A DNA stretch of 64,000 bases from Hymenobacter oligotrophus (GTDB lineage Bacteria; Bacteroidota; Bacteroidia; Cytophagales; Hymenobacteraceae), in assembly GCF_003574965.1 (NCBI RefSeq), contig NZ_CP032317.1:3038001-3102000 (forward strand). Direction: 5' to 3'. The translations under genes and the position numbers were made by a program. Positions within the stretch are counted from its first letter, which is position 1, and the number at the start of each line of letters is the position of its first letter. The notes under the pieces are model-generated. The model searched no databases and was not told where the DNA came from. It worked only from the letters and a program-made list of their open reading frames with translations. This document shows positions 61,785-64,000 of the stretch, piece by piece.

Positions 61785-62492
61785 TTACCACTCCTGCGTG
61801 GTGGGGTGCAGCATCAACTCGTCGATTACGACGTGGGCCGGCGCCTCCAACACGTAGCGTACGGCCTGGGCCACATCGAGGGGTTGCAGATGCGTCAGCT
61901 GCTTTTCGGGGGCTCCGGGGCGCGCGTCGTTGAAGTGCGTATCAACCAGCCCGGGGTAAATCACGCTCACCTTGATGCCGTGCGGGCGCACCTCCTTGCG
62001 CAGCGCATCGAGCACGGCGTGTTGGGCGTACTTGCTGGCGCCGTAGGCGGTGCCGTGCGCAAAAGTGCGCTTGCTCACGTCGGAGGCAATGCCCACGATG
62101 TGGCCGCGGCGCTGCTCCTTAAAGTGCGGCAACGCGGCTTTGCAGAGCAGGAAGGTGCCCTTCACGTTCACATCGAACATCCGGTCCCACTCGGCTTCCT
62201 CAAAGTTTTCGAGCAGGTTAAACGAGCCGACGCCGGCGTTGCACACCACCATATCGAGACGGCCGTAGCGGTTCAGGGCCTCGGCTACCACCAGTTGCGC
62301 GTCGGCCTCTTGGCTTACGTCGGCCACCACGGGCAAGCCGTTGGTTTTGTGGGCCACTTCCAGCAGGTCGTCTTCGGAGCGGGCTACCAGCACTACCTGG
62401 GCGCCCTGCAGGGCCAGCAACGTGGCAATGGCCCGCCCAATGCCGCGGCTGGCCCCGGTTACAATGGCTACTTGGTTGGTTAGGTCGGTCAT
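61785..62492 (-). CDS. Short-chain dehydrogenase/reductase
   Basis: 235 residues from the ATG at 62492; a frame extending to 62558 only translates the repeat arm of the neighbouring element. NAD(P)-binding TGASRGIG near residue 12, NAG (VVCNAGVG), the catalytic Ser in IASDVSKR and YGASK (Tyr-Lys) are all in place. Classical SDR length. Substrate unknown; it sits inside the maltodextrin cluster, 139 bp upstream of a GH13 gene. The gap upstream of its start codon (62493-62523) is the left arm of a mobile-like element. Confidence 0.93.
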   Translation of the reverse strand: MTDLTNQVAIVTGASRGIGRAIATLLALQGAQVVLVARSEDDLLEVAHKTNGLPVVADVSQEADAQLVVAEALNRYGRLDMVVCNAGVGSFNLLENFEEAEWDRMFDVNVKGTFLLCKAALPHFKEQRRGHIVGIASDVSKRTFAHGTAYGASKYAQHAVLDALRKEVRPHGIKVSVIYPGLVDTHFNDARPGAPEKQLTHLQPLDVAQAVRYVLEAPAHVVIDELMLHPTTQEW

Positions 62493-62500
62493 CGTGTTAT

Positions 62501-62974
62501 TTCTCGCTGAGGTTCGCTGAGGTTTACGCCGAGGTTCGCGGAGAATCTTGCAGGCCATTTACGATACGCACGATTCCTTCTTTGACGTGCACCACGCTGA
62601 AATTCATCAACAGGCCAAGCTTGCAGTCCGAAAGTTTCAGGTACGTGAGCAATTGTTTGTGGTGCACATCCAGCAAAGCATCTACCGATTTGATTTCAAC
62701 GATAACCCGATTATGCACCAGCAGGTCGAGTCGAAAACCTACGTCCATCCGCTGTCCTTCGTACACCATCGGCAACGGCACTTGGGTTTTCACCTCGTAG
62801 CCCAACAGGCGAAGCTCATAGGCCAAGGCCACCTCGTATACCGATTCGAGCAAGCTCGGACATAGGGCCGTATGCACCTTAAAGGCAGCCTTGCGGATGT
62901 TGAAAGAAATATCGTTTTCGTGCATAAAAGCTCAGCGAACCTCTGCGCTTTACCTCCGCGAACCTCAGCGAGAA
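62501..62974. mobile_element. GxxExxY gene bounded by inverted degenerate repeat arms
   Basis: Left arm 62501-62549 and right arm 62931-62974 are inverted copies beginning with the same 17 bp (TTCTCGCTGAGGTTCGC). Each arm is three or four degenerate units of 10-12 bp containing GAGGTTCGC or GAGGT. Between them lies only the 133-codon gene. The element starts 8 bp from the SDR start codon and ends 17 bp from the stop of the GH13 gene. I see no target-site duplication. Whether it moves is inference. Confidence 0.6.
62524..62925 (-). CDS. GxxExxY protein (PDDEXK_3 nuclease fold)
   Basis: 133 residues. The family-naming motif is SLLESVY here (Gly replaced by Ser) in ALCPSLLESVYEVALAYELR. The nuclease-fold triad is kept: Asp in RLDLLV, ExK as VEIKSV, then QLLTYL. 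The end KLGLLMNFSVVHVKEGIVRI is typical. These proteins are common in Bacteroidota and have no proven function; the fold predicts DNA or RNA cleavage. The start codon is 5 bp from the right repeat arm and the stop is inside the left arm, so the gene and repeats form one unit. Confidence 0.9.
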   Translation of the reverse strand: MHENDISFNIRKAAFKVHTALCPSLLESVYEVALAYELRLLGYEVKTQVPLPMVYEGQRMDVGFRLDLLVHNRVIVEIKSVDALLDVHHKQLLTYLKLSDCKLGLLMNFSVVHVKEGIVRIVNGLQDSPRTSA

Positions 62975-62991
62975 AAATCCTAGGTCAACGA

Positions 62992-64000
62992 TTACTTCTT
63001 CAGCTCCAGCACCCAGGCCGTGTAGGCGGGCACTTTCAGCGAGGCCAGGTTATCGAGCGAGGTGCCGGTAATTACCTCCTGCGCCGACTTGTAGCCTTGC
63101 ATGCGCTCGGCAAAGCGGGCGGTTTCCACGGTTTTGGCCTCTTTGCTGGCGTTCATCACCACCATCACGGTTTCGCCCTGCTCGTTGTAGCGGAAGTAAG
63201 TGTACACGCCGTTGTCGGGGATGAAGTGCATGTACTTGCCGGTGTGCAGCACGGGGTGCGTGCGGCGGTAGTTGGCCAAGCGGCTTACGTACTCGAAAGC
63301 GGCGTTTTGCTGCTCGTTGCGGCCGGCTTTGGTAAAGGCATTGTTCTTGTCGCCGGCCCAGCCGCCGGGGAAATCCTCGCGCACTTTGCCATCGGGGTTG
63401 GAGTAGTTCTTCATCAGCACCTCGGTGCCGTAGTACAGCTGCGGCGTGCCGCGCGTGGTGAGCAGCCAGGCAATGCCCATCTTGTACTTCTGGAAGTCTT
63501 CGCCCACCACCGAGAAGAAGCGGCTCACGTCGTGGTTGTCGAGGAACACCACGTTGCGCTGTGGGTCTTCGTACATCCAGTCGGTTTGCATGGTGTAGTA
63601 CAGCTTGTTGATGCCTTCCGTCCAGCCGGCGTCGCGCGTCAGGCCTTCGTTGATGGCGTATTGCAGCTGAAAATCGAGCACGCCGGGCATGTTGCTTTTG
63701 AAGCCCTGCACCTCCGGAAAGATGTTGCGCGCGAAGTAGGCCTGCTGCCCGGTGCCTTGCACCCAGGTTTCGGCAAACATCCCTAGGTTGGGGTACTCGT
63801 CGAGGATGGCCTTGCCCCAGTCCATCAGAAACTTGCGGTCCGAGTACGTGTAGGTATCCACGCGGTAGCCGTCGAGGCCGGTGTACTCTACCCACCACAG
63901 GAAGTTCTGGATGAGGTAGCGCGACACCTGCGGGTTGCTCTGGTTCAGGTCGGCCATGTGCTTATCAAACCACCCTTCGCCAAACTGCTTGCGGTCGGCA
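62992..64000 (-). CDS. GH13 glycosidase (neopullulanase/SusA-like), N-terminus outside window
   Basis: 335 residues of the C-terminal part; the frame is open to the window end. GH13 region II is YTGLDGYRVDTYTYSDRKFL (nucleophile Asp), III NLGMFAETWVQGTG (Glu), IV VVFLDNHDVSRFF. The MADLNQSNPQVSRYLIQNFL stretch before region II matches cyclomaltodextrinase/neopullulanase (SusA) relatives. The C-terminal domain ends PAYTAWVLELKK. It is the first visible gene of the minus-strand maltodextrin cluster, and the GxxExxY element sits between it and the SDR. Confidence 0.93.
   Translation of the reverse strand, partial: ADRKQFGEGWFDKHMADLNQSNPQVSRYLIQNFLWWVEYTGLDGYRVDTYTYSDRKFLMDWGKAILDEYPNLGMFAETWVQGTGQQAYFARNIFPEVQGFKSNMPGVLDFQLQYAINEGLTRDAGWTEGINKLYYTMQTDWMYEDPQRNVVFLDNHDVSRFFSVVGEDFQKYKMGIAWLLTTRGTPQLYYGTEVLMKNYSNPDGKVREDFPGGWAGDKNNAFTKAGRNEQQNAAFEYVSRLANYRRTHPVLHTGKYMHFIPDNGVYTYFRYNEQGETVMVVMNASKEAKTVETARFAERMQGYKSAQEVITGTSLDNLASLKVPAYTAWVLELKK

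Follow-up and report, generated by a model that had tools for sequence, protein, structure and literature searches.

A GxxExxY nuclease-fold gene between inverted arrays of phased repeat units, a candidate minimal mobile element of Hymenobacter and its relatives

Among the closest described parallels to the locus reported here is the RAYT system, in which the gene for one small enzyme, a HUH Y1 transposase, is flanked by palindromic repeats, and in which intergenic, gene-less copies depend on the resident enzyme. Our element comes from a 64,000-nucleotide stretch of Hymenobacter oligotrophus DNA, hereafter the window, and it shares with REP/REPIN-RAYT units both the small enzyme gene between palindromic repeats and the presence of gene-less copies beside that gene. 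The enzyme, however, is a different one, since the unit's one ORF belongs to PDDEXK_3/TIGR04256 and not to the HUH Y1 transposases, and the arms are arrays of phased units 40-80 bp long, in place of a short hairpin that bears a GTAG-like tag. The description "RAYT-like" in the first-pass annotation of this DNA is thus apt as an analogy of lifestyle, but not for the enzyme or the architecture of the arms.

Other systems share parts of the plan. MITEs resemble the short gene-less inverted-arm copies found here, which measure about 85-115 bp, but here no DDE transposase partner was identified and no target duplication was seen among the aligned sites. From Cas4/RecB-type nucleases the family is distinguished as a stand-alone protein of 110-130 aa. 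In the intervening sequences (IVS) of 23S rRNA an ORF lies in the loop of terminal inverted repeats, a plan shared by the S23-like four-helix-bundle genes considered below, whereas the window element lies between two protein genes and not in rRNA, and has a nuclease instead of S23, arms built of repeat units, and dispersed gene-less copies. For GxxExxY, PDDEXK_3, PF13366 and TIGR04256, the accessible portions of the open-access literature (e.g. PMC8934634 and PMC12085832; subscription journals and preprints fall largely outside it) describe neither arms, gene-less copies nor mobility. Recurrence, apparent independent travel and gene-less companions together make this appear to be an undescribed class of minimal mobile element, in the sense that we did not find it in the open-access literature searched.

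GxxExxY proteins are widespread and unexplained, and a link to the arms gives this family a role that can be tested, that of a mobiliser, while accounting for part of the intergenic palindromes in Bacteroidota and beyond. It would also mean that DNA can be moved by a nuclease that has neither a transposase nor a recombinase as partner, and the rule of arm periods described below (9-12 bp versus 7 bp) helps to approach the long-standing question of why ORFs like S23 lie within inverted repeats.

The window element and its protein

The element is a 476-bp unit at 62500-62975 of the window, in which one GxxExxY gene is bracketed by two inverted arms; the extent first annotated, 62501-62974, was correct to within one base. 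Its features and neighbours are as follows.

Left arm, 62500..62544, plus strand: TTTCT, then four units, CGCTGAGG, CGCTGAGG, CGCCGAGG and CGCGGAGA, at 62505, 62515, 62527 and 62537 (spacing 10/12/10 bp)
Right arm, 62930..62975, minus strand: inverted copy of the left-arm plan, four units, spacing 10/13/10 bp on the minus strand
GxxExxY protein gene, 62524..62925, minus strand: 133 aa; predicted PD-(D/E)XK fold, structurally best matched by a Cas4-type nuclease; catalytic residues intact
SDR-like flanking gene, 61785..62492, minus strand: downstream of the element; host gene and marker of locus A; ATG near 62492
GH13-like flanking gene, 62992..64000, minus strand: upstream of the element; ends at 62992 and continues past the window edge

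All three genes lie on the minus strand, and the flanking genes are presumably SDR-like and GH13-like, labels that we assign from reading the sequence. The outer 24 nt of the arms (62500-62523 and 62952-62975) are 96% complementary, and inverted matches continue inward to about 62544 and 62930. Both arms begin TTTCTCGC and carry four CGCNGAGG-like units, the innermost imperfect, those of the right arm lying at about 62963-62970, 62953-62960, 62940-62947 and 62930-62937. The arms align with a score of 28.5, where shuffled flanks of the 94 genes compared below give a mean of 9.7 and a maximum of 12.5. Arm alignment, unit positions and profile matches thus confirm the one-gene unit inside inverted arms of degenerate units that had been proposed, including the placement of the gene's ends at or in the arms: the stop codon lies within the left arm, and the ATG lies a few bases from the innermost right-arm unit.

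The window protein is a clear member of the GxxExxY (TIGR04256) and PDDEXK_3 (PF13366) families, with profile matches at 3.7e-38 (130.5 bits against a curated cut-off of 35) and 1.8e-37 (128.7 bits against 22), respectively. The GxxExxY motif is not kept letter for letter, the window protein having Ser24 at the eponymous Gly; it also has Cys22 where glycine is nearly invariant, and it keeps its catalytic residues. E27, Y30, D67, E77, K79, Q91 and Y95 are all retained, of which E27, D67, E77, K79, Q91 and Y95 are invariant in 58 of 58 proteins. The predicted structure (pLDDT 91.4) has the core fold and the D...ExK signature of a putative PD-(D/E)XK nuclease, and its fold matches are mainly DNA nucleases. 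A Cas4-type nuclease is the best match, with restriction-type folds nearly as high (8.4, 8.3), and because these trail the top row so closely, we use "Cas4-like" for the best match and not as a classification; a sequence search of the PDB with the window protein gave no match at E up to 1. The gene is under strong purifying selection, with a median dN/dS of 0.037 in 16 close gene pairs (from 28, of which six had no usable value and six more lay outside 0.05<dS<2). Two protein groups correspond to two arm styles: elements of the "HENDIS" group, which includes the window protein, have CGCNGAGG-like units near the gene, and those of the "GCAMxVH" group have GATT-containing units placed farther out.

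Recurrence of the arms and their descent with the protein

A GxxExxY gene is present in 119 of 200 genomes of the family and missing from 81. The 94 full-length elements compared (102 domains less 8 fragments) are a non-random set, mostly the highest-scoring among the matches listed. The score of a gene's own arms exceeds the 95th percentile of cross-locus comparisons (17.5) in 88 of the 94, over 35 flank clusters, and the 99th percentile (33.9) in 56, with a median of 35 against a cross-locus median of 10; L027, L036, L045, L056, L133 and L175 fall under the 95th percentile. Arms around other GxxExxY genes, on which the earlier proposal depended, are thus present across genus and family. The unit period of these arms is 9-12 bp: compared with shuffles, self-match peaks at lags of 9-12 and 21-24 in arms of the "HENDIS" group (57), and at 9-10 and 18-19 in those of the "GCAMxVH" group (30). 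In L124, L156, L170 and L148, a terminator-like hairpin inside the arms is copied inverted, giving near-identical arms of about 75-85 bp.

The family and its arms also appear to extend beyond the phylum. Scanning species genomes confirmed at least 591 relatives, of which 80 were kept and 79 scored, one being dropped for a short flank. Measured against a cross-locus control that is itself raised by a shared consensus, 33 of the 79 lie above the 95th percentile and 21 above the 99th; quite a few show little. The terminal tag GTC[TA]GAA[CT] flanks the gene on either side in the inverted sense at 30 of the 79 loci, in opposite sense at 4 and as the reversed sequence at none; a looser tag gives 53, 16 and 14. 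Loci above the 95th percentile from outside Bacteroidota bear the titles Calditrichota, Nitrospirae, Melioribacteraceae, Peribacteraceae and uncultured proteobacterium, and most of these are metagenome bins, in which binning errors are possible.

Within the family, the similarity of arms follows that of the proteins. Over the elements with an arm score of at least 19 (7 of the 94 fall under it and were left out), arm and protein similarity correlate with a rho of 0.676 in all pairs, and of 0.573 in the 3241 pairs from different loci alone, in both cases with 0 of 999 permutations reaching the observed value. At locus A, 28 elements form 378 pairs, of which 198 could be aligned over both flanks, a pair being kept if it had at least 250 aligned flank bases; here protein and arms correlate at 0.673 and left and right flanks at 0.352 (each 0/999), and the mixed comparisons give -0.078 (protein and left flank), 0.083 (protein and right), -0.077 (arm and left) and -0.008 (arm and right). 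A second locus (14 elements, 91 pairs) behaves in the same way, with 0.672 for protein and arms, 0.464 for the flanks, and 0.026, 0.122, -0.010 and -0.165 for protein or arm against flanks. The modest flank signal limits the power of this control; nonetheless, descent of flank with flank and of protein with arm was detected in the same pairs. Arms that track the protein, flanks that track each other, and the independence of the two point to gene and arms travelling together, and from these sequence comparisons we believe it very probable that they move as one unit.

The protein tree leads to the same view, requiring at least five label changes on starred branches for locus A (seven in all). 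The protein of G181 groups with the window protein (support 92/86), L048 of locus A falls within the protein clade of another locus (98/94), and L037 and L058 fall within that of a third (98/90). Arm style matches protein clade in each of these cases, with an arm similarity of only 0.42 between L048 and L055 of the clade that it joins. Consider also the window genome, G000, and its sister genome, G007, whose flanks at locus A are 94-95% identical. Their elements there share a protein identity of 0.63 and an arm similarity of 0.26, while the window element and that of G181, from another genus at the same locus, reach 0.74 and 0.81. That the window element is closer to G181 than to G007, despite the similarity of the flanks, counts for a descent of arms and protein apart from the flanks. 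The mobile unit of gene and arms suggested in the first-pass annotation is therefore well supported by phylogeny, through protein tree, covariation and flank control together.

Shared sites, gene-less copies and four-helix-bundle elements

The unit is not fixed at locus A in relatives, and it is fixation that the earlier annotation would have counted against mobility: of the 30 closest loci, 10 hold the gene unit, its frame broken in 3, while arms alone occupy 5, possible remnants 2, and 13 have no element. Neither a clean empty site with an exact junction nor a target duplication was found among the aligned sites, because the intergenic gaps differ wholly between species, holding terminator-like hairpins, other palindromic families and other genes. 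The element-free sites of locus A have terminator-like hairpins in most of the loci printed. Inversion in place at shared loci was considered and rejected, since the loci checked, once oriented by strand, have the same gene direction at locus A.

Arm types differ between G000 and G007 at shared sites. Each of the six CGCTGAGG-armed sites of G000 is occupied in G007 by a palindromic unit of one kind or another: a TAGCCC-type at A, S5, S11 and, as TTGCCC, S8, a CGCNGAGG-type at L020, and a four-helix-bundle element at S3. The gene-less sites S5, S11 and S8 switch arm type between the two genomes, as the locus-A elements do. A complete, genome-wide replacement of arm type was rejected, as seven sites of G000 are still of the TAGCCC type, four of which it has in common with G007 and one of which has no detectable arms, and because of this retention any replacement would be incomplete and proceed site by site (A, S5, S11, S8). 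Together with the varied contents of the sites, it suggests that replacement is local, with hot or permissive sites contributing. Elements also persist at one locus and in one orientation across many species, and the sites host unrelated palindromic families as well, a pattern that a permissive-site model explains too. A third palindromic family (GTCATTGCGAG...), with GTCATTGCGAGCGAAGC-like ends, fills these gaps in a number of species and frequently surrounds a terminator-like hairpin (L181, L192, L211, L216, L447, L448, L450, L454-L456).

Gene-less copies accompany the gene. The window genome has one GxxExxY gene and 21 matches to CGAACCTCNGCG, against 4 for the reversed control; several of the matches pair into gene-less elements, and some are single, in no visible pair. 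Sites S3, S5, S8, S11 and L020 have the TTTCTCGC start in common with the window element (TTCTCGC at S8) and mostly its 10/12/10 unit spacing. Over 124 genomes of two genera, the CGCNGAGGNNCGCNGAGG pattern, which fits one arm style and whose matches include the genes' own arms, has a mean of 5.4 in the 82 genomes with the gene and 1.1 in the 42 without (Mann-Whitney p 2.8e-5, uncorrected for relatedness), and at least five matches occur in 26 of the 82 against 3 of the 42 in which no gene was detected. No recent burst has been caught, as the gene-less copies within a genome fall short of near-identity.

The two arms of an element change together. In gene-less elements the two arms carry the same variable outer triplet in 13 of 19 cases (five of 24 loci, not parsed as inward pairs, were left out), against 6 of 52 when different elements within a genome are compared. 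Across 28 pairs of closely related genes, 73 of 1288 columns show a change in both arms, where 18 were expected, and 48 of the 73 changed to the same letters, against about 6 expected; in 63 of 87 elements, the two arms resemble each other more than they do the arms of the nearest protein relative. A fold-back function, template switching or end-to-end copying would each yield such coupling, and these data pick none of the three. Four of the 20 gene-less loci fetched (L240, L252, L254, L255) have outward-facing unit pairs, with reversed polarity and a short centre.

Similar arms surround an unrelated protein. Among the four-helix-bundle (TIGR02436) genes of the genus (L289-L311, e.g. G007:C1:141567-141890 and G003:C5:220934-221254), 20 of 23 lie in inverted arms that score above the cross-locus 95th percentile, and the arms of 20 such genes have self-match peaks at 7, 14 and 21, a 7-bp period, compared with shuffles. 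Such elements stand at sites where other species hold gene-less GxxExxY-type elements (G007 at S3, G003 at S11). Their own arm-protein covariation is weak (rho 0.15, 28/999 permutations, n = 18, five of the 23 loci being left out).

A candidate mechanism, its rivals and some outlying loci

Overall, we believe that a minimal self-mobilising element, with its own nuclease as the mobiliser, is the best explanation, at a probability of roughly 0.58. Its ends would be the two arms, each with about four degenerate units roughly one helical turn apart, a spacing that could let several nuclease protomers line up on a single face of each arm, or of the hairpin into which the arms fold back. Cleavage by the small Cas4-like PD-(D/E)XK nuclease would take place at its cognate arms, and gene and arms together would be copied into sites, preferably at the 3' ends of genes or where an element of this kind already sits, in which case the prior occupant would be replaced. 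Arm pairs that lack the gene would depend for their movement, as non-autonomous derivatives, on the cognate nuclease acting in trans. The proposal, already in the first-pass annotation, that the protein may recognise its own arms and move the element draws its support from covariation, gene-less copies and conserved catalytic residues; as a whole, the interpretation given there is partly supported. A fuller version stands, in our judgement, at even odds: a new class of minimal autonomous element in several phyla, in which a Cas4-like nuclease would be the sole mobiliser, reading phased arrays, overwriting older elements and driving gene-less copies, with a four-helix-bundle sister class whose arms are of 7 bp period, the period being set by the protein.

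The presence of four-helix-bundle genes, unrelated to nucleases, in arms of the same kind (20 of 23) and at the same sites makes a common outside machinery conceivable. Gene and arms would then still move together, but as passengers of host recombination between the arms, or of a transposase or reverse transcriptase acting in trans, and the nuclease would serve the element otherwise, for example in the repair or stability of the arms. The difference in arm period between the protein families (9-12 bp against 7 bp) and the covariation of arms with the GxxExxY protein across loci point instead to recognition by the encoded protein, and we consider the passenger reading unlikely; for the four-helix-bundle elements such covariation is weak. 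A somewhat less likely reading dispenses with dedicated mobility altogether. The gene would be an intergenic gene kept by the host, its hairpin ends serving as terminators, with short-tract homologous recombination swapping alleles between species and quasi-palindrome correction equalising the arms. This would suit the strong purifying selection, the elements that abut stop codons, the terminator-like hairpins in some arms and in most of the printed element-free sites, and the homogenisation of arms through template switching described in PMC8604942. Arm-protein covariation nonetheless persists across unlinked loci, the new arm type also occurs gene-less at unlinked sites, and the gene is missing from 81 of the 200 family genomes.

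Least probable, and in our view very unlikely, is an element acting at the RNA level, like the 23S rRNA intervening sequences, whose arms would form an RNA stem on which the protein acts. The four-helix-bundle relatives of S23 have the same arm plan here, coupled arms are compatible with a stem, and the Coxiella IVS, as described in PMC4990558, has its S23 ORF inside a 28-bp terminal inverted repeat; the loci examined here, however, lie between protein genes and not in rRNA, and the fold matches are mainly to DNA nucleases. The self-mobilising element remains our preferred reading.

Phage records gave no match, and two loci on viral contigs have weak arms (scores 16.5 and 14.5). Among eight plasmid members, no convincing arms were scored in five (Fusobacteria, Persicobacter, Treponema, Sphingomonas, Prevotella). 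The genes of L469 (Sphingomonas plasmid, between fabD and fabG) and L471 (Prevotella) lie in tight neighbourhoods with no detectable arms, and are possibly domesticated. L468, on a Gemmatirosa plasmid, has a GxxExxY-like gene between arrays of 12-bp units that resemble GGACTGAAGAA, with hairpins at the ends of the arrays, its long inverted match being partly coding sequence. In L366, L345, L361 and L382 of the cross-phylum set, each side seems to hold a palindrome-like stretch of its own instead of a half, resembling a gene between two gene-less elements. Finally, intergenic TAACTGA heptamers are reported in Beggiatoaceae, where the authors of PMC4679880 suggest an unidentified repeat-binding mobile protein; some of the four-helix-bundle arm units, read as the reverse complement, look similar to these heptamers.
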